A DNA stretch of 52,382 nucleotides, taken from the NCBI GenBank assembly GCA_029572955.1, contig JAKPQE010000031.1, forward strand, positions 1 to 52,382, in the 5' to 3' direction. This document shows, piece after piece, positions 36,428 through 52,382 of this stretch. The stretch comes from Pseudomonadota bacterium (GTDB taxonomy: Bacteria; Pseudomonadota; Alphaproteobacteria; Rhizobiales; JAKPQE01). The notes under the pieces were generated by a model that was given only the letters and a program-made list of their open reading frames with translations, searched no databases and was not told the DNA's origin. Within the stretch, counting starts at the first letter, position 1. Each line of letters opens with the position of its first letter. The position numbers and the translations under genes are program-made.

Positions 36428-36844
36428 ATGGATCTGGCCAAGAGCAAGACTCTCGACAATCTGAAGGAAGCCTTCGCCGGCGAGAGCCAGGCGAACCGCC
36501 GCTATCTCTATTTCGCACAGAAGGCCGATGTCGAGGGCTACAACGACGTCGCCGCGGTGTTCCGTTCGACCGCCGAAGGCGAGACCGGCCACGCCCACGG
36601 CCATCTGGAGTTCATGGAGTCCGTCGGCGACCCGGCGACCGGCATGCCGATCGGCTCGACCTCGGACAACCTGAAGGCCTCGATCGCCGGTGAGACGCAC
36701 GAGTACACCGACATGTACCCGGGCATGGCGCGCACCGCCCGCGACGAAGGCTTCGAGGAGATCGCCGACTGGTTCGAGACCCTCGCCAAGGCCGAGAAGT
36801 CGCACGCCGGCCGCTTCACCAAGGCTCTCGAGAGCATGGACTGA
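36428..36844 (+). CDS. Rubrerythrin (erythrin domain only)
   Basis: A 138-residue four-helix di-iron protein that reduces hydrogen peroxide in the cytoplasm. Candidate iron ligands are E19, E52/H55 (EGETGHAH), E89/E92 (GETHEY) and E123/H126 (EKSHAG). The usual C-terminal rubredoxin domain is missing, so electrons must come from another protein; the Fe-S oxidoreductase downstream is a candidate. ATG 36428 is 5 bases after AGGAGG; an ATG at 36425 is too close. The ICE-like element upstream suggests iron regulation. Confidence 0.93.
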
Positions 36845-36862
36845 GCGCCACGGCGCCTTATT

Positions 36863-36888
36863 CGGGGCGGCGCTTCGGCGCCGTCCCG
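36863..36888 (+). other. UUCG-capped hairpin between rubrerythrin and the Fe-S oxidoreductase
   Basis: An 11-bp stem (CGGGGCGGCGC/GCGCCGTCCCG, one G-U pair) closed by a TTCG loop sits 18 bases after the rubrerythrin stop. There is no T-run. It may raise the level of the first mRNA segment over the rest by blocking 3' exonucleases. Confidence 0.45.
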
Positions 36889-36935
36889 CCCTCCTTCACC
36901 GATCTCCGCATAATCCCGCAAGGGGAGACGAGGCC

Positions 36936-38285
36936 ATGTCCGGCAAAGCCACCAGGGAAGGCTCCACGCAAGCCCCCACCCGCCATCCGCTCAACTGGCA
37001 GGACGAGTCGTTCTACGATCTCGACGCCATCGAGAAGGAGATGACCCGGGTCTTCGACATATGTCACGGCTGCCGGCGCTGCTTCAATCTCTGCGATTCC
37101 TTCCCGCGCCTGTTCGACATGGTCGACGAGTCGCCGACCGGCGAGATGGACGGGCTCGACCCGAAGCGGGACTATCCGAAGATCGACGAGGCCTGCACGC
37201 TCTGCGACATGTGCTTCCTGACGAAGTGCCCCTACGTGCCGCCGCACGAGTTCGACCTCGACTTCCCGCACCTCATCCTGCGCTACCGCGCGGCGATGAT
37301 GCGCCAGAAGGACGTGCCCTTCACCGTCAAGCAGCTCTCCCAGACCGACCGCAACGGCAAGCTCGCCGCGCCGGTCGCCGGCCTTGCCAACTGGGGCTCG
37401 AAGCGCGGCAATTCGCTGACCCGGCCGCTGCTCGAGGCGACCCTCGGCATCGACAAGGACGTCGAGCTGCCGAAGTATCATTCCAAGCCGTTCTCCAAGA
37501 CCGCGGTCGCGACCAAGCCGGCGCTCAACACCGCCGCGCCGGCCCATGGCCGCAAGGCCGTGCTCTACGCCACCTGCTTCGTCGACTACAACCAGCCCTC
37601 GACGGGCGTCGCCGCCCAGGCGGTGCTTGCCCGCAACGGCGTCGAGACCGAGGTGGTCTATCCGGCCTGCTGCGGCATGCCGTATCTCGAGCATGGCGAC
37701 ATCGCCAAGGTCGCCGAGCAGGCGCGGATCGTTTCGGCCGAGCTCGTGAAGTGGATCGACAAGGGCTACGACGTCATCTCGCTGACGGCGAGCTGCGGCC
37801 TGATGCTGAAGTTCGAGTGGCCGCTGATCCTGCCGCAAGACGAGACCGTCAAGAAGCTCGCCGGCGCGGTCAAGGACATCTCCGAATACGTCGTCGACAT
37901 CGCCAAGAAGGAAGGCCTCGCCGAGGGTCTTTCGCCGGTCGAGGGTGGCGTCACGGTGCACATGGCCTGCCATGCGCGGGCCCAGAACATGGGCCAGAAG
38001 GCGGCCGAGATGCTGCGCTTCATCCCCGAGACCAAGATCGACGTCGTCGAGCGCTGCTCGGGCCATGGCGGCACCTTCGGCGTCCTCAAGGAGACGCGCG
38101 GCTGCGCGGTGAAGGTCGCCAAGCCTGCCGCCAACCAGGTCAAGCAGAAGGGCAACAAGCAACTCTGCTCGGAGTGCCCGCTGGCGGCCAAGCATCTCGC
38201 CCAGGTTCTCGGAGACGGCGGCACGCCGATCGCCGAGGGGCACCCGATCGAGATTTTCGCCCGGGCCTATGGCGCGGCCGTCTGA
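36936..38285 (+). CDS. Fe-S oxidoreductase with two ferredoxin clusters and CCG domains
   Basis: A 449-residue protein related to GlpC and HdrD. The N-terminal part has two [4Fe-4S] motifs: CHGCRRCFNLC (about residue 43) and CTLCDMCFLTKCPYVP (near residue 85). The C-terminal part has CCG-type cysteine segments: ATCFVDYNQPSTG, PACCGMPYLEHG, and CSGHGGTFG after MACHARAQNMG. Such proteins pass electrons between quinols or ferredoxins and a thiol or flavin partner. Its position after rubrerythrin suggests it feeds electrons to that protein. ATG 36936 follows AGGGGAG. Confidence 0.88.
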   Translation: MSGKATREGSTQAPTRHPLNWQDESFYDLDAIEKEMTRVFDICHGCRRCFNLCDSFPRLFDMVDESPTGEMDGLDPKRDYPKIDEACTLCDMCFLTKCPYVPPHEFDLDFPHLILRYRAAMMRQKDVPFTVKQLSQTDRNGKLAAPVAGLANWGSKRGNSLTRPLLEATLGIDKDVELPKYHSKPFSKTAVATKPALNTAAPAHGRKAVLYATCFVDYNQPSTGVAAQAVLARNGVETEVVYPACCGMPYLEHGDIAKVAEQARIVSAELVKWIDKGYDVISLTASCGLMLKFEWPLILPQDETVKKLAGAVKDISEYVVDIAKKEGLAEGLSPVEGGVTVHMACHARAQNMGQKAAEMLRFIPETKIDVVERCSGHGGTFGVLKETRGCAVKVAKPAANQVKQKGNKQLCSECPLAAKHLAQVLGDGGTPIAEGHPIEIFARAYGAAV

Positions 38286-38337
38286 GGACGACCGCCCCGG
38301 ACCACGACAGACAGGATTCGAGAAGGAGGCACCCAAG

Positions 38338-38931
38338 ATGCCGGCTGCCGAGAAGCGCATCACGCGCGAGGACGTCATCGATTTCGACAAGTTCGCCCGC
38401 GAGCGCGGCGAGCGGCGCAAGGCGCTGATCCCGACCAAGCGGCTGCGCCGCATCGAGGTCGGCCCGGTCGCCACCTTCTATTTCGAGAACTTCGAGACGA
38501 TGCTGTTCCAGGTGCAGGAGATGCTGCACATCGAGCGCGGCGGCGAGGAGCAGATCAAGGACGAGCTCCATGCCTACAACCCGCTGATCCCGCAGGGCTC
38601 CGAGCTCGTCGCCACGGTCATGTTCGAGATCGAGGATGCGCGCCGGCGCGAGGAGATGCTGAAGCGTCTCACCCATGTCGAGGAGCATCTGTTCCTCAAG
38701 ATCGGCGACGACAAGATCTACTGCAAGCCCGAGGAAGACGCCGAGCGCACCAGCCCGGACGGCAAGACCTCGTCGGTGCATTTCGTCCGCTTCCCGATCA
38801 CCGACGCACAGAAGGCGGTGTTCCGCTCGCCGAGCGTCGAGATCTTCGCCGGCGTCGACCACGAGAACTACGCCCACATGGCGGCGCTTTCGCCGGCCAG
38901 CCGGGCGGAACTCGCCAAGGATTTCGAATAA
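38338..38931 (+). CDS. DUF3501 protein
   Basis: A 197-residue soluble protein of the DUF3501 family, unknown in function. The sequence ITREDVIDFDKFARERGERRKALIPTKRLRRIEVGP is its conserved start. Charged helices follow, with no signal peptide and no cysteine cluster. It is repeatedly encoded beside rubrerythrin and the Fe-S oxidoreductase, as here, and probably serves the same peroxide-detoxifying unit. RBS AAGGAGG at 38323-38329 fits the ATG at 38338. Confidence 0.88.
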   Translation: MPAAEKRITREDVIDFDKFARERGERRKALIPTKRLRRIEVGPVATFYFENFETMLFQVQEMLHIERGGEEQIKDELHAYNPLIPQGSELVATVMFEIEDARRREEMLKRLTHVEEHLFLKIGDDKIYCKPEEDAERTSPDGKTSSVHFVRFPITDAQKAVFRSPSVEIFAGVDHENYAHMAALSPASRAELAKDFE

Positions 38932-46065: not shown

Positions 46066-46301
46066 TACGGTTCGATGTCGAGTGTATGACGGCGCGCGGG
46101 CAATTGGAATCGATTCTCTGCAGCATCCTGCAGGAGGTGGTGCGGGCCGTAGCGGGCAGGGCCGCCGGGCCGCGTCCCTCGCCGCAGCATTTGCCGTCAC
46201 GATGCGCGCGCGGCGGGGGGTTGAAATCGCGAACCCGTGGTGTTAGCTAACGCCTCACCGCGCAGGCGGTGCCATTCTCGTCCCGCCCGCCGGGACCCGG
46301 A

Positions 46302-46375
46302 TGGGGGATAGTTTAATGGTAGAACAGCGGACTCTGACTCCGTTAGTCTTGGTTCGAATCCAGGTCCCCCAGCCA
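46302..46375 (+). tRNA. tRNA-Gln (anticodon CTG)
   Basis: The sequence folds into a cloverleaf: acceptor TGGGGGA/TCCCCCA, D-arm, anticodon stem GCGGA/TCCGT with loop CTCTGAC (46332-46338), T-arm with TTCGAAT, and encoded CCA at 46373-46375. The anticodon at 46334-46336 is CTG, reading the glutamine codon CAG. The gene is 74 bases with CCA. It lies on the plus strand, with its 3' end facing the nif cluster. Confidence 0.95.
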
Positions 46376-46568
46376 AACTTTTCCTGAAAAATCATTGGAT
46401 TGATGCCAATCTCGAGGCTGGCGTCGCGGTTCGCGCATGGCGCCTCGGAAAAACGACGCCAACACGGCGCGCGGTCGTGCCAATCGAAAACCGAACGTCG
46501 ATCCCGTTCCGGCTGTCGGTACCTTCAGAATTTCGAATCCGCCGGATCGTGCGGCAGCGACCCGCAAG

Positions 46569-47546
46569 TCACGAAGCCGCCGCGCCGTCTCCAGCGAACG
46601 CCGCATCGCCGACGAGGACGGCACGAGGCTGGAGACGGGAGATCTGCCGGCCGGCCTCGACGGGGCACCAGCCGGTGGCGTCGGCAAGGCCTGCACGCAG
46701 CGCGAGCTCGCCGGCCATCTGCGCCGGGACGAAGTTGACGACATCGGCGGCGAGCCGCCCGTTCCTGCCGTGGATCGTGCGCGTCGCGGCATCGACCCGC
46801 TCGACCGGACCGAAGCTCGCGCCGGAGACATAGTCGACGTTGCGGCCGAACGCCCGGACGAGGTCGGCGGCGCGGTCCGCGCCGGTATTGCCGTGGTCGA
46901 GCAGCACCACCGTCGATGCCGGCTTTTCCCGCGCCAGATAGCCGGCGATTTCCGCCGCCCGCCGAAACGGCCCTTCGGGGAAGCGCATGCGACCGGGCGG
47001 AACGCGGATCGCGACCGTGCCACCATCCGCCATGGCCCGGATCTGCGCGGCGAGCCGCCGGATGCTCGTCGTTCCGAACCAGCCGTGCGGCATCGCCTCG
47101 GCGGCGTCGCGGTCGTAGCCTTCGATTCCCTCGTCGCGGGCCGCGACGCCCGGTGCGACGACGATGCGATCGAAAGCGAAACTCCGGCCGCTGATCGCCG
47201 CAGCGGTGCCGCGCTGCCAGTCGATGTCGCGGATTTCGTCGACGGCGATCGAAACGCCGGCGGCGGCGAGCGCGTCATAGCCGGCGCCGGCGAGCGGCCC
47301 GGACACCGGACCTGCCGGACGGCCGGGGCGAAGCTGGGTCGGGTCACGCTCGACCAGAAGAACCTTCGTCGCCGGCTGCGCGCCGCGAAGGGCGATCGCC
47401 GCGGCTGCGCCGGCGGGACCGCCACCGACGACGAGCACGCGTTCGCCGGATCGGCCGCGAAGGAGAGCGGGCGCCGCGCCGGCGAGAGAGGCCGCGCCGA
47501 CCGCGGCGCCGGCGACGAGCAGATGACGACGAGAGAACTCAGGCAT
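46569..47546 (-). CDS. FccB-like flavoprotein, C-terminally short, Tat signal
   Basis: A 325-residue protein related to the flavin subunit of flavocytochrome c sulfide dehydrogenase. Residues 1-28 look like a Tat signal (SRRHLLVAGAAVGAAS). The FAD motif VLVVGGGPAGAAAAIAL follows (about 37-53). FccB uses a redox disulfide: one Cys is kept at C294 (GWCPV), but the other (FRCPPGP in FccB) reads MRFPEGP (F189). It also ends at GDAAFAGDG, about 70-80 residues earlier than FccB. No homologous sequence continues past the stop. It overlaps nifM by 8 bases. Confidence 0.75.
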   Translation of the reverse strand: MPEFSRRHLLVAGAAVGAASLAGAAPALLRGRSGERVLVVGGGPAGAAAAIALRGAQPATKVLLVERDPTQLRPGRPAGPVSGPLAGAGYDALAAAGVSIAVDEIRDIDWQRGTAAAISGRSFAFDRIVVAPGVAARDEGIEGYDRDAAEAMPHGWFGTTSIRRLAAQIRAMADGGTVAIRVPPGRMRFPEGPFRRAAEIAGYLAREKPASTVVLLDHGNTGADRAADLVRAFGRNVDYVSGASFGPVERVDAATRTIHGRNGRLAADVVNFVPAQMAGELALRAGLADATGWCPVEAGRQISRLQPRAVLVGDAAFAGDGAAAS

Positions 47547-48432
47547 GGCTGGCCTCCATTCCGGTTGGATCGGGGTCGGTGGCGCGGGCGATGCCCGGCG
47601 CACGCTTCATCAGCTCCGCGAGCCAGGCCACCTGCCGCGTCTTGCGGCGCGTCTTTTCCATGGCGTCGCGGATCCTGCTGCGCGCCGTCTCGAACGGGAC
47701 GACCGCGGCCGGAAAGATCGTCTCGCAAAGAACGAGGTGAAAGCCGAGCTCGCTTTCGAGCGGCGGGCTGATCTCGCCCTCGTCCATGGCAAAGAGCGCG
47801 GCATCGAGGGTCGGATAGAGCTGGCCGCGGGCAATGCGCCCGAGCCGGCCGCCATCGAGCGCGCTCGGGCATTCCGAATGGCGGCCGGCGAGCGCCCGGA
47901 ACTCGGCGAGATTGCCGCCCATGCCGGCGCGGAGCGCGGTGATCCGCGCTTGTGCCCGCTCCCGCGAATTCTCCGGGATGGCGGCGTTCACGGTGACGAG
48001 GATATGGCTGGCAAGGCGGATCTCGGGCAGATCGAACTTCTCGGGATGGCGGTCGTACCAGCCCCGCACCTGCTCCTCGGTCGGCGTCGGGACGCTGGCG
48101 GCGACCTTCTCCAGGACCGCCTCGACCTTCAGTTCGCGCGCCAGCGCGACGACGAGGTCGGCCTCGTCGAGACCGTTGCCCGCCATGTCGGCGGCGAAAT
48201 CCTCGGGGCTGTCGTAGCGGCTTCTGACGTCCTCGATGGTCTCTTCCAGCGTCCGGTCGGGAATGACGATGCCGGCCGCCTCCGGGCTTGCAAGCACCCT
48301 TGCCTCGATGTCGATGGAGCGCCGGGCCTCGGCCTCGGCCGCCGCCCGCTCGTCGAGACCGAGTTCGGCGAAGCGCCGGCCGAACAGCGAAAGCGCCGCC
48401 CGCAAACGGTGATGGGCAAGGACGCCACTCAT
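47539..48432 (-). CDS. nifM: NifM, parvulin-type peptidyl-prolyl isomerase for nitrogenase maturation
   Basis: A 297-residue protein. NifM folds the NifH iron protein in Klebsiella and Azotobacter. The N-terminal helical part includes LAHHRLRAALSLFG and the PPIase domain holds IRLASHILVTVNA, SALDGGRLGRI and the later FHLVLCETIF. The ATG at 48432 overlaps the nifZ stop by ATGA. NifM occurs mainly in gammaproteobacteria, so its presence here is unusual. The identity also rests on its position after nifZ. Confidence 0.85.
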   Translation of the reverse strand: MSGVLAHHRLRAALSLFGRRFAELGLDERAAAEAEARRSIDIEARVLASPEAAGIVIPDRTLEETIEDVRSRYDSPEDFAADMAGNGLDEADLVVALARELKVEAVLEKVAASVPTPTEEQVRGWYDRHPEKFDLPEIRLASHILVTVNAAIPENSRERAQARITALRAGMGGNLAEFRALAGRHSECPSALDGGRLGRIARGQLYPTLDAALFAMDEGEISPPLESELGFHLVLCETIFPAAVVPFETARSRIRDAMEKTRRKTRQVAWLAELMKRAPGIARATDPDPTGMEASHA

Positions 48433-48953
48433 GCATCGCCCTCGCGGTCGCCATCTTCCAATGCCGGCCAGTCGGCGACATCCGCGCCGTCGGGCGCGCC
48501 GTCGGGCGCACCGTCGGGCGCGGCGTCGAGCGCCGCCTCCGGCACCTGCAGCATCTTGCCGGGAAAATTCACATGATAGGCGACGCCCGCCGGCAGATCC
48601 CGCAGCACCTTGATGATCTCGCCGCTCGCGCCCTTCCCGACGACGACGTTGCCGCCAATGCCGAGATCGATCGCGGCAATGACCTTCTCGCCGAACTCGA
48701 ACCGGCTCTGCACCCAGGCCGCGTCGATGCCGATGAGTTCGCGGTCCCGGCAACCGACGAGAATATCCGCCTCGGTGAAATGGACCGTGTAGATGACCTG
48801 ATCCTGCAGGAAGGTTCCGATGTCGCGCACGACGCCGGTCGAGCCGCGCCTGACGAGCAGCACGCCGGTTGCGATGCCCGGAAAGGTACCGTCGTTGCGC
48901 AGGTTGCGCACGACACGCACCTCCTCGCCATAGTCGAAGCGTGGCCGGTCCAT
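48429..48953 (-). CDS. nifZ: NifZ
   Basis: A 174-residue protein needed for P-cluster formation in the MoFe protein. The two NifZ-type segments are FDYGEEVRVVRNLRNDGTFPG and FEFGEKVIAAIDLGIGGNVVVG, each beginning with the G-E-x-V pattern. The C-terminus bears three APDGA-type repeats (encoded near 48486-48521), a low-complexity tail. The ATG at 48953 is supported by AGGTGAGGG ahead. GTG at 48962 is possible. Confidence 0.92.
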   Translation of the reverse strand: MDRPRFDYGEEVRVVRNLRNDGTFPGIATGVLLVRRGSTGVVRDIGTFLQDQVIYTVHFTEADILVGCRDRELIGIDAAWVQSRFEFGEKVIAAIDLGIGGNVVVGKGASGEIIKVLRDLPAGVAYHVNFPGKMLQVPEAALDAAPDGAPDGAPDGADVADWPALEDGDREGDA

Positions 48954-48962
48954 CGCCCTCAC

Positions 48963-49283
48963 CTACTTCAGGAGCTCTTCGACGGGCACGAAGGCCGGCT
49001 TCTTCGCCTCACCGTGGAAGACCTTGAAGACCTTCTCGGTGCGGGCGTCGGAGACGACGAAATCGTCATAGGCGCGGCGCAGGTGCCGCGTGTAGTAGTC
49101 CCACCAGGATTCGCCCATGGCCGGCCCGTCGGTGTCCGCCTCGAGATAGTCGTGGAAGCGCTGCAGGATGTGCAGCCGGTTGACGAAGACCACCTGCGGC
49201 TCCGTCTCGATGTTGAAGAAGTGGAAGAAGTCCTCGGCGCTGGAGAGGTCTTCGAGTTCCGCTTCGAGTTCGGCGTTGCGCAT
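48963..49283 (-). CDS. nifW: NifW
   Basis: A 106-residue protein that stabilises or protects the MoFe protein. The NifW features are LEDLSSAEDFFHFFNI, VVFVNRLHILQRFHDYL and the C-terminal KVFKVF. The ATG at 49283 shares one base with the stop of the TPR gene (TGATG); TTG at 49286 is a less likely start because it lies too near GGAG. nifZ follows 9 bases on. Confidence 0.93.
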   Translation of the reverse strand: MRNAELEAELEDLSSAEDFFHFFNIETEPQVVFVNRLHILQRFHDYLEADTDGPAMGESWWDYYTRHLRRAYDDFVVSDARTEKVFKVFHGEAKKPAFVPVEELLK

Positions 49284-49834
49284 CAATGGCTCCTTGTCTC
49301 GGCGATTTCGGACAGCGTTTCGCGGGCGATCTGCAGGAGCGCGGCGGTGCCGAGACGGTCGGCGCCATCGAGCGTGGCAAGCTTTTCGAGGCGGGCGAGC
49401 GCCTCGTCGAAACGGCCGAGGCGCATCAGGAGATACGCCTCCCCCTTGACGGCCCAGAGCAGGAACCGGGTCATCGCCATGCGCGACCGGCCGGAGCGCT
49501 CGATGTCGGCGACTTCGAGAACGCGCCAGTCGCCGGGAATGTTGAGGCGCCGGCCGGCGGCCTGCATCGCCCTCTCGGCAACCGGCAGCGCGGCGGCGTA
49601 GTCGTGCTGGAAATAGAAGAAGCGATAGAGCGCGACGATGACGGTGAGGTCGTCCGGCGCGAGGCGCAGCGCCTCTTCGAGCCGGGCGCGCGCCAGGGCC
49701 GGCGTCGACGCGCTCTGCGCCGCCGCCACGAGTTCGGTGACGACGGGCAGGCTCGGCTCGTCGAAATAGAGGGCCTCGCCGGCGAAATCGAGGAGGTCGG
49801 GGCCGGTCGCGGCGGAATGGACGACTTCAGCCAT
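49283..49834 (-). CDS. TPR protein embedded in the nif operon
   Basis: A 183-residue protein made largely of tetratricopeptide-like helices ([55 protein letters not shown]). It has no signal peptide. It overlaps cysE by 8 bases and nifW by one, so it is part of one transcript. The Azotobacter order cysE1-nifW has no gene here. A role in nitrogenase assembly or partner recognition is likely but unproven. ATG 49834 follows GGGAGG. Confidence 0.8.
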
Positions 49835-50564
49835 GAGCCACCTCCCGCCGCCGCTCGACACCTGCCTCGCAGACGGACGCCGCCGAGCAATCGCCGCACT
49901 CCTCGGCGGCGGCGGCCTTGCCGGCGAGCTGCCGCTCCAGCCCCTCGATCCGTTCGATCAGGCAGCCGATCGCCTCGGCGACCGGGTCCGGGATGAGATG
50001 GTGGTCGAGGTCGATGCCGTAGGGATTGAAATAGGCGACCTTCCCGGCGCGGCGCACGACCCGCCCCGGAATGCCGACCACCGTCGCCCCCGACGGCACG
50101 TTGCCGACGACCACCGAATTCGCCCCGATCTTGGAATTGCAGCCGACGCGAATGGCGCCGAGCACCTTGGCGCCGGCGCCGATGACGACGTTGTCCTCGA
50201 TGGTCGGGTGGCGCTTGCCCTTGTTCCATGTCGTGCCGCCGAGGGTGACGCCGTGATAGAGGGTCACGCCGTCGCCGACCTCGGCGGTCTCGCCGATGAC
50301 GACCCCGGCGCCATGGTCGATGAAGAAGCGCCGGCCGATGGTCGCGCCCGGATGGATGTCGACATTGGTGAGGAACCGGCCGAGCCAGGAGACGAAGCGG
50401 GCGGAAAAGCGCCAGCCGCCGCGCCAGAGGCGATTGGCGATGCGGTGCCAGATCAGGGCATGGACGCCTGGATAGGTGGCAAGGATTTCAAGGGTGGAGC
50501 GCGCGGCCGGATCGCGCTCGAAGACGCAGGCGATGTCGTCGCGGATCGTGCCGACGAGCGTCAT
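49827..50564 (-). CDS. cysE: Serine O-acetyltransferase
   Basis: A 245-residue acetyltransferase making O-acetylserine for cysteine synthesis; in nif clusters it raises cysteine for NifS-made Fe-S clusters. The left-handed beta-helix hexapeptides are [42 protein letters not shown] and [20 protein letters not shown]. The short form starts [21 protein letters not shown]. It lies between nifV (4 bases) and the TPR gene, matching Azotobacter cysE1. Confidence 0.93.
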
Positions 50565-50568
50565 GACC

Positions 50569-51708
50569 CTATCCCCCGCTCGCCTGCATCGCGTGGTGGA
50601 AGTCGAGGAGTTCGAGAACTTCCGGCGGCCGCTTCTTCATCTCGGCAAAACCGCGAATGGCACCGAGCAGGCGACCTGCCTCGTCGCGGCTGACCTCGAG
50701 GCCGATCGCGCCATAGGCATGGATAACCGAGGCCGTGCCGGAATGCTTGCCGAGCACGAGTTCGTGGTGCCGGCCAATCTCGGTTGGGTCGACGCCCTGA
50801 TAGTTGCGCGGGTCCTTCAGGATGCCGTCGACGTGAATGCCGGATTCATGGGTGAAAACCGAACGCCCGACGATGCTTTTCTGCTGCGGCACCGGGCGGC
50901 CGGACGCGGCGGCAACGAGATCGGAGACCTCGCCGAGGGCGGCGAGGGCAATGCCGGTGTCGCGGCGATGGAGATGCTTCATCGCCATGGCGAACTCTTC
51001 CAGCGGCGCGTTGCCGGCGCGCTCGCCGAGACCATTGACGGTCGTATTGACATGCGTCGCGCCGTGCATGGCGGCGGCCAGCGAATTGGCGGTCGCCAGG
51101 CCGAAATCGTCGTGGGCGTGCATTTCGAGTTCGAGATCGCTCGCCGCCCGCAGGCGCCGGAAAACCTCGGCCGTGGCGAACGGCTCCATGACGCCGACGG
51201 TATCGGCGAAACGGAAGCGGCGCGCCCCTGCCCCTGCTGCCGCCTCGACGACGGCCTCGAGGAAATCGAGATCGGCGCGCGATGAATCCTCGCCGCCGAC
51301 ACAGACGTCGAGGCCGGCATCGAGGGCGCGTGGCACGAGGGTGCGAATGCGCTCGAGCACCGTCTCGCGATTGCCGCCGAGCTTGTGCTCGATCTGCTGG
51401 TCCGAGACCGGTACCGAGAGGTCGACCATGCCGACGCCGAGCCCGATCGCGGCGGCAAGATCGGCTGCCGTCATCCGGCACCAGACGAGAAGCCGGGCAC
51501 GAAGGCCGAGGCCGGCGATGGCACGGATCACGTCGCGTTCTTCCGGCCCCATCGCCGGAATGCCGATTTCGAGTTCCGGCACGCCGATGGCATCGAGCCG
51601 ACGGGCGATCTCGAGCTTTTCGGCAAGCGTGAAGGCGACGCCGGCGGTCTGTTCGCCATCGCGCAGCGTCGTGTCGTCAATGATCACCGGCGGCAGCGGG
51701 TCGGACAT
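50569..51708 (-). CDS. nifV: Homocitrate synthase NifV
   Basis: A 379-residue enzyme that makes homocitrate, the organic acid of the FeMo-cofactor. [15 protein letters not shown] is the metal-binding start, and [34 protein letters not shown] and the loop [13 protein letters not shown] follow. [11 protein letters not shown] is the second signature. The alternative, alpha-isopropylmalate synthase, lacks this nif context and is longer. It ends 4 bases before cysE and begins 9 bases after nifS. Confidence 0.95.
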
Positions 51709-51717
51709 CGCGCCGCC

Positions 51718-52382
51718 TCACGAGTAGGCCGGAGCGAAGGCCGCGGCCGGATCCTCGACCGGGCCATTCCCGCTCCAATACGGCGAAAGCTTGCGGAGCT
51801 GGGCGATGATCGGCGGCACGGCCGCGACAACCCTGTCGATCTCGTCTCCGGTGTTTTCGTGCGAGAGCGAAAAGCGGATCGAGCCATGGGCCGCCGTATA
51901 GGGAATGTCCATGGCACGCATGACATGGGAGGGCTCGAGCGAACCCGAGGTGCAGGCCGATCCGGACGAGGCGGCGATGCCGAGCTTGTTGAGAAGCATC
52001 AGGATCGCCTCGCCCTCGACGAACTCGAAGGCGATGTTCGAGGTGTTCGGCAGGCGGTTGTCGACGTCGCCGGTGGCGAAGGCATGCGACACGGCGGCGA
52101 GGATGCCGTCCTCGAGGCGATCGCGCAGGGCGCGCACGCGGGTCTGCTCGTCCTTCATGCGAAGGAGGGCCAGCTCGGCCGCCTTGCCGAGGGCGACGAT
52201 CGAGGCGGTGTTCTCGGTGCCGGCCCGGCGGCCGCGCTCCTGATGGCCCCCGCGCAACAACGGCCGGAAACGGACGCCGCGCTTGAGGTAGAGAACGCCG
52301 ACGCCCTTCGGGGCATGCAGCTTGTGGCCGGAGAGCGACAGCATGTCGATCCCGGTGTTCTTCAGGTCGATCGGCAGCTTGC
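51718..52382 (-). CDS. nifS: Cysteine desulfurase NifS, C-terminal part (5' end outside window)
   Basis: A PLP enzyme that supplies sulfur for nitrogenase clusters. The frame is open to the window edge (residues KLPIDLKNTGID before MLSLSG). The PLP lysine is in LSGHKLHAPKGVG, and RGGHQERGRRAGTENT and the active-site Cys in SSGSACTSGSLEPSHV are present. Only the C-terminal 220 or so residues are visible. The next gene starts 9 bases after the stop. The upstream promoter is outside the window. Confidence 0.95.
   Translation of the reverse strand, partial: KLPIDLKNTGIDMLSLSGHKLHAPKGVGVLYLKRGVRFRPLLRGGHQERGRRAGTENTASIVALGKAAELALLRMKDEQTRVRALRDRLEDGILAAVSHAFATGDVDNRLPNTSNIAFEFVEGEAILMLLNKLGIAASSGSACTSGSLEPSHVMRAMDIPYTAAHGSIRFSLSHENTGDEIDRVVAAVPPIIAQLRKLSPYWSGNGPVEDPAAAFAPAYS

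Follow-up and report, generated by a model that had tools for sequence, protein, structure and literature searches.

By its sequence, the short flavoprotein gene that follows nifM in the window (the whole 52,382-nucleotide stretch of DNA that was analysed) is real and conserved, and encodes an unusual FccB variant that is linked to nif and Rnf genes and whose function we infer. Comparison with its relatives points to a distinct FccB subfamily under selection, in which the FAD-binding and central domains and a twin-arginine start are kept. It is more likely that the short protein is a working part of the electron supply of nitrogenase than that its gene is dying. Our tentative proposal, to which we give somewhat less than an even chance, is that it acts as an exported one-flavin redox module for Rnf and thereby serves electron supply to nitrogenase. 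A search of titles and the starts of abstracts in the open-licence PMC literature found no publication on the short FccB gene, and the terms 'sulfide dehydrogenase' and 'flavocytochrome c' are absent from the text of PMC8238504.

A short FccB-like gene behind nifM

The gene closes a block of nif genes that runs to the end of the contig:

46456..46470, minus strand: terminator-like hairpin, about 100 bp past the flavoprotein stop (consensus scan, weak)
46569..47546, minus strand: short FccB-like flavoprotein gene, an open reading frame of 325 aa without internal stop
47539..48429, minus strand: nifM (TIGR02933, 214.4 bits against a cut-off of 168.2)
47553..47557, minus strand: GGAGG, a ribosome-binding-type site within the 3' end of nifM, 6 nt 5' of the flavoprotein ATG
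48429..48962, minus strand: nifZ (PF04319)
48963..49286, minus strand: nifW (PF03206)
49283..49861, minus strand: TPR-like nif-block gene (TPR matches weak and under the cut-off)
49827..50564, minus strand: cysE (TIGR01172)
50569..51708, minus strand: nifV (TIGR02660)
51718..52344, minus strand: nifS, 3' part only, at the contig end (TIGR03402 profile positions 191-379)

Upstream of the flavoprotein gene the order is nifS-nifV-cysE-TPR-nifW-nifZ-nifM, all in the same direction, and the flavoprotein ATG lies within the last nifM codons, an overlap of 8 bp. Its downstream neighbour is a convergent tRNA-Gln gene. The consensus scan, a weak test, gave five terminator-like sites on the two strands of 46200-48000 against a shuffle mean of 1.2. 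Coding periodicity, measured as GC by codon position, extends to the flavoprotein stop and is absent from there to the tRNA. The open reading frame is a real gene and, because the periodicity ends at its stop, no frameshift conceals a further domain; the frameshift restoring a full-length FccB, which the earlier note had named as grounds for refutation, is thereby ruled out. We also considered an overlapping open reading frame past the stop, in another frame, as a candidate FCSD C-terminal domain; by eye its sequence is unlike one.

Two other features of the window may be recorded here. The TPR-like gene, which lies between cysE and nifW and overlaps cysE, is an unnamed nif-cluster gene with a 59% identical stretch at the same position in Rhodobium orientis. 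At 36690-38931, a gene for a CCG-domain protein (PF02754) is directly followed by a DUF3501 gene.

The protein was assigned to FccB by sequence and by fold. In Pfam it matched FCSD_central (PF21706, E 2.4e-18, 66.8 bits against a cut-off of 27) and Pyr_redox_2 (PF07992); all of its Pfam matches were to FCSD or flavin families, with no Rnf family among them. Searched against the sequences of solved structures at E <=0.001, it gave three matches, all FccB chains (5n1t, 1fcd and 3vrd; E 7.2e-49 to 8.5e-43; 32-34% identity). The same three chains were the best fold matches of its AlphaFold model (mean pLDDT 84.9; Foldseek TM by query length 0.75-0.78), with SQR ranking after FccB, and NDH-2-like and ferredoxin-reductase-like chains after SQR. 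The model of the R. orientis orthologue (pLDDT 84.0) gave VIA Z scores of 29.2-30.4 against the FccB chains over 303-306 residues and aligned to residues 1-319 of the 401 of 1fcd (Z 29.2); as modelled, this protein is FccB minus approximately its last 80 residues. The earlier description of an FccB-like flavoprotein in a nif cluster is borne out by the PF21706 match, the FccB chains and the nifS-to-nifM block upstream. SQR shares the general fold, but identities in the fold-match rows are 14-20%. SQR has a catalytic cysteine pair and a C-terminal membrane-binding part, whereas in the short protein the residue at the Cys161 position is not a cysteine and the C-terminal part is lacking.

The positions that matter for the chemistry of the protein are as follows:

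46605..46610, minus strand: second FAD-binding motif, GD (G313-D314), present in 52/52 canonical rows and 4/4 short members
46665..46667, minus strand: codon of C294 (GWCPV), the GWC position, C in 49/52 canonical rows
46962..46964, minus strand: codon of R195, at the position of Glu167 in FccB (alignment)
46980..46982, minus strand: codon of F189, at the position of the redox Cys161 in FccB (alignment)
47325..47327, minus strand: codon of P74, at the position of the FAD-linking Cys42 in FccB (alignment)
47409..47426, minus strand: FAD-binding glycine motif G41-G46, kept in 4/4 short members
47454..47546, minus strand: N-terminal twin-arginine signal region, MPEFSRRHLLVAGAAVGAASLAGAAPALLRG (TAT_signal PF10518, E 0.0071, below the gathering score)

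We aligned four short proteins with 52 canonical FccB rows, which represent 51 genes, L004 and L082 being a single gene. The FccB search had given 50 matches, 30 of them with loci (the window's own, the short form of R. orientis and 28 others), and L002 was contributed by a separate search; 18 of the 19 remaining matches were aligned as a further set, the last, G049:C102, running off its contig end with Cys42 and Cys161 kept.

The Cys42 column holds proline in all four short proteins but cysteine in 52/52 canonical and 13/18 further rows. At Cys161 the short proteins have F, F, F and Y in place of the cysteine of 52/52 canonical and 16/18 further rows, in agreement with the replaced redox cysteine that had been reported at F189. 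Six residues on lies Glu167, which we take to have an active-site role; it is R, Q, R and V in the short proteins and E in 52/52 canonical and 17/18 further rows. Cys337 is absent from all four, but is kept in 51/52 canonical rows (the remaining row being cut by a contig end) and in 15/18 further rows, one of the three misses being truncated by the end of its contig. In FccB the C-terminal domain, with this second redox cysteine, faces the cytochrome. The short chains lack the domain, stopping in or after the FAD domain, and in the window protein only 13 residues follow the GD motif, against 105-127 in complete canonical rows; the earlier report of a missing C-terminal domain was therefore right. 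The same report of 'one' redox cysteine lost stands for Cys161 but understates the case, for Cys337, Cys42 (P74) and Glu167 (R195) are gone as well. Nor does C294 survive as the kept redox partner it was thought to be: it is the GWC position, and the true partner, Cys337, belongs to the missing domain.

By contrast with these losses, several features are shared with FccB of known structure (1fcd, 3vrd, 5n1t): the FAD and central domain fold, the FAD motifs, the twin-arginine start and the GWC motif. The glycine motif corresponds to reference G45, G47 and G50, found in 52/52 canonical rows, and the short members also retain the PG turn and, in HxW, both H and W. All 4/4 short members keep the signal RR, and a 39-row alignment shows R6 and R7 conserved to 90% or more; the Tat-type start proposed earlier is thus present, with a TAT_signal match below its gathering score. 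This conserved start supports a predicted periplasmic location, with Tat as the putative export route.

In the portion of PMC3504083 consulted, Cys42 is the FAD attachment site of FccB and Cys161 and Cys337 form a disulfide; the active-site Glu is given there as Glu169 in that protein's own numbering, which is not matched to the Glu167 column. With the disulfide and the covalent FAD link both lost, the anatomy of the protein rules out the FccB mechanism of sulfide oxidation. From the kept motifs the short protein is predicted to bind FAD, most likely non-covalently.

Relatives of the short form

The searches turned up the short form in four genomes, which represent three lineages: the window's own (G000); the pair G060, taken as R. 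orientis DSM 11290, and G096; and one Sneathiellales genome (G397, taken as JANQFL010000034.1). G060 and G096 share a genus code and belong to a family other than the window's in the same order, and the Sneathiellales genome belongs to another order. Identity to the window protein is 52-53% for R. orientis, 51% for G096 and 44% for the Sneathiellales protein. All four short members found share the losses described above, which is more than chance, so that the alignment of homologues suggested earlier shows a conserved loss, including in the nif clusters of R. orientis and G096.

A maximum-likelihood tree of 56 rows (Cys42 and Cys161 columns removed; L003, L035, L036, L068 and L070 dropped as repeats) placed the four short proteins in one clade, 100/100, against 52 others, and the clade was still 100/100 against 69 others in a 73-row tree to which the 18 further rows were added and from which the Glu167 column was also removed. 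This clade sits on a long branch, and both trees are midpoint-rooted only and flag an odd letter make-up in the short rows; long end branches were flagged for L001 in the first tree and for L147 and L138 in the second.

The 52 canonical rows had led to the statement that only the short clade lost these residues, but this is refuted by a full-length homologue, G019:C71 (L138, 37597-38541), in which Cys42, Cys161, Glu167 and Cys337 are all lost while the 432-aa frame is intact. Besides it, Cys42 is lost in four more of the further rows, Cys161 in one other and Cys337 in one; in G047:C333 the FccB frame is present. G019:C71 shares all four losses with the short form but differs in its full length and in its place outside the short clade in the 73-row tree, and no nif, rnf or apbE gene was seen by eye in the approximately 5 kb read beside it. 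Loss of the redox residues therefore arose more than once and is not unique. On these alignments, the hallmark of the nif/Rnf group is the combination of the residue losses with removal of the C-terminal domain.

Three further full-length proteins (L143, L144 and L145, from G038, G007 and G057) have P for Cys42 and keep both redox cysteines. They form a separate clade, 100/100, and their FAD is probably non-covalent.

Our searches found the short form in at least 3 of 397 genomes of the order and at least 2 of 385 of the class. In the phylum sample 22 of 378 genomes matched; the window's own was the only short form among the matches listed, and all the other listed matches were frames of 423-464 aa. 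Because at most five candidates were scored per genome in these samples (E limits 1e-58 or 1e-56), the short form is rare and these counts are minimum values. Around the Sneathiellales genome, the order sample consisted of one genome. A first scan of genome contigs gave no matches; a later contig scan with two peptide patterns had the Sneathiellales member among the matches listed. A plasmid search returned 54 records, all below 60% identity, the 30 among the matches listed being 30.7-36.8% identical.

The company of nif, Rnf and ApbE genes

In G000, G060 and G096, which represent two lineages, the short fccB lies directly after nifM; it is a nif-cluster accessory gene in more than one lineage. 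In all three of these genomes rnf and apbE accompany nif, and RnfC is encoded on the nifH contig. In R. orientis the rnf genes, apbE, nifH and a nif block that terminates in the short fccB all share a single contig (rnfC, rnfG, rnfH, one Rnf-Nqr subunit and apbE were checked by profile; nifD, nifK and others were identified by reading their translations). In the window's genome a contig separate from the window bears nifH together with rnfC, rnfG, two Rnf-Nqr subunits, an RseC-like gene and apbE. The RnfG proteins of G000 and R. orientis have an SGAT site, with apbE in the same regions, and their ApbE proteins have lipoprotein-type starts (LAGC and IAAC, respectively).

The Sneathiellales genome shows the gene outside a nif setting. 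Its order is apbE, short fccB, an rnfB-type gene and a 2-oxoacid:ferredoxin oxidoreductase gene, at a contig end (apbE by PF02424; the rnfB-type gene over cut-off by TIGR01944), and the genome gave no match to nifH. The apbE is its only apbE match at 1e-15 and shares 53% identity with the apbE of the window's genome. RnfC was not found there, the operon running off the contig. A search with the rnfB-type protein at 1e-15 gave no counterpart in G000, G060 or G096; the Rnf of the nif genomes is therefore of a type other than the Sneathiellales one. A related arrangement occurs in G015:C374 (L066, 342-8666), where an rnfB-type gene and a gene for a 1651-aa 2-oxoacid:ferredoxin oxidoreductase are followed by rnfC and rnfD, which suggests an operon coupling POR to Rnf. 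The G015 rnfB-type gene is 68% identical to the Sneathiellales one and, from this gene order, the Sneathiellales fragment probably represents the beginning of an Rnf operon of this kind. Another Sneathiellales locus (L053, G397:C38, 6405-19381) has an HlyC acyltransferase-family gene beside a 3784-codon frame that runs off its contig.

The short gene is not present wherever its neighbours are. RnfC was found in 22 of 332 genomes of the order (21 over cut-off), all 22 of which, by their numbers, belonged to the order sample searched for the short form; 19 of them are without the short form, and 13 of the 16 NifM-bearing genomes (of 397 in the order) have no short fccB within approximately 1.5 kb of nifM; it follows that neither Rnf nor NifM needs the short protein. 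Since the 22 genomes with RnfC include at least 14 of the 16 that bear NifM, the Rnf link inside nif clusters is not independent of nif. Of 14 genomes tested, 8 had a close apbE type (>=52% identity): the four that carry the short form and four others that have Rnf but no short form (G015, G062, G012 and G101; 52-57%); of the rest, four had a distant apbE (30-33%) and two had none. Apart from the Sneathiellales locus itself, none of 34 rnfC or apbE loci contained an FccB-like gene. The short protein is thus an optional addition, and the nif-independent evidence for a link to Rnf is one locus. One rnf-type apbE of G015 (L121, G015:C66:331-1365) has a single in-frame TGA, from a broken gene or a sequencing fault.

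A possible role follows from this company. The consulted portions of PMC12174285 describe Rnf as supplying nitrogenase in Rhodobacter and Azotobacter and, with those of PMC12052999, RnfG and RnfD as working with ApbE-attached FMN. The short protein would fold around non-covalent FAD in the cytoplasm and be exported by Tat, folded and FAD-loaded. Its loosely held FAD would thereby be exposed in the periplasm, the site of action of RnfG and RnfD, and could exchange electrons with their periplasmic flavins or with a donor upstream of them; Rnf would thus be able to reduce ferredoxin for nitrogenase. The analysis shows the anatomy, the shared losses, the single clade, the selection and the gene company; FAD binding and export, both read from motifs, partnership with Rnf and the direction of electron flow are steps that we infer, and a new role is indirectly backed by the lost sulfide mechanism, the kept FAD motifs and the nif, rnf and apbE neighbours. 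The likeness to the Rnf and ApbE system (RnfABCDGE) is one of gene company only, with nif in G000 and R. orientis and with apbE and rnfB in Sneathiellales; the protein itself belongs to FCSD/flavin families and not to Rnf, and most RnfC-bearing genomes lack it. The small number of known lineages, three, the FAD-domain helix missing from the window copy and the G019:C71 homologue, which lowered our confidence slightly, also weigh against the redox-module proposal.

A second reading, which we regard as unlikely, gives the protein no redox chemistry of its own: it would be a Tat-exported carrier that hands cytoplasmic FAD to periplasmic ApbE for flavinylation of RnfG and RnfD. Consistent with this, the gene adjoins the sole apbE match of the Sneathiellales genome, the protein has retained its FAD-binding motifs but not the FAD-locking cysteine, and in G000 and R. 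orientis ApbE has a lipoprotein-like start, from which it follows that ApbE would cross unfolded and need FAD outside. A parallel exists in Paracoccus, where the ApbE homologues NosX and NirX are Tat-exported (PMC7660919, in the portion consulted, which also reports that NosX is proposed to flavinylate NosR). Like the short protein, as predicted, these are Tat-exported FAD-binding proteins of an alphaproteobacterium, but they belong to the ApbE family and not to FccB, and the parallel is functional only. Against such a carrier, rnf and the same apbE type occur without the short protein in G015, G062, G012 and G101, and the window copy is without one FAD-domain helix. Electron exchange, the conventional interpretation, is in our judgement more likely than supply of FAD to ApbE.

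We assign similarly little probability to a periplasmic protein that binds or senses sulfur compounds or thiols, transfers no electrons and is kept with the nif cluster. FccB ancestry and the presence of cysE and nifS in the same block would fit such a protein, but the known sulfide-reacting cysteines are lost and no signalling gene was seen beside the short fccB in the loci read.

It is also doubtful, to about the same degree, that the protein is a partner of NifM or of NifH maturation in the cytoplasm or at the membrane, with the twin-arginine start merely an anchor. The gene does follow nifM immediately, with an overlap in the window, and the two proteins show nearly the same identity between the window and R. 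orientis (52% and 53%). However, the Sneathiellales genome that carries the short form is the one without a nifH match, and the RR start is conserved.

Selection, decay and meaning

Between the two closest members, R. orientis and G096, dN/dS was 0.168 (NG86) and 0.116 (YN00) for the short fccB and 0.156 and 0.120 for nifM, so that the constraint check proposed earlier finds the gene constrained to the same extent as nifM. For the window against R. orientis the ratio was 0.44 for both genes, and against G096 it was 0.53 for the short fccB and 0.43 for nifM, in pairs whose synonymous sites are near saturation (dS 0.88-0.97) and which have no YN00 values. Other proteins of the nif block are more alike in window and R. 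orientis (nifS 83%, cysE 78%, nifV 74%). By these measures the short fccB evolves much like nifM.

The earlier note had allowed that the gene might be decaying, and a decaying FccB paralogue, on its way to becoming a pseudogene in the window's lineage, is in our judgement a very unlikely explanation. The window copy stops 14-18 residues before its orthologues and alone lacks the last FAD-domain helix, which may reflect a recent shortening or an assembly fault; its ratio against G096 exceeds that of nifM; and a canonical fccB is present elsewhere in the same genome. That copy (L002, G000:C140, 1189-3116) keeps all redox residues, and its neighbour has two CxxCH motifs, read from the translation. 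On the other side, the window gene has no stop and no frameshift, its periodicity running to its end; its dN/dS and protein identity against R. orientis match those of nifM; and the orthologues are intact with the same losses, the short form being shared by two nif lineages and one without nif. Since the two closest members give the same dN/dS as nifM does, decay is not supported.

A sulfide dehydrogenase working by another mechanism is extremely improbable: the FccB fold, at 32-34% identity, would suit it, but the protein has neither the FAD-linking cysteine nor the redox pair, Glu167 and the C-terminal domain are gone too, and the neighbours are nifM and tRNA-Gln, with no cytochrome gene such as would encode the partner subunit of FccB.

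Short genes of this kind may be annotated as sulfide dehydrogenase, yet they cannot work by that mechanism. Should the protein carry FAD to ApbE, it would bear on how exported flavin proteins acquire their cofactor, a supply still described as obscure in the consulted portion of a 2025 review (PMC12052999), and would answer, for one system, how FAD reaches ApbE. If instead it serves Rnf, as we tentatively prefer, it would be an exported flavin component added to the nitrogenase electron chain of some alphaproteobacteria. Overall, the subfamily appears to be an enzyme fold that has stayed under selection after losing its chemistry and that is tied to the electron supply of nitrogenase.
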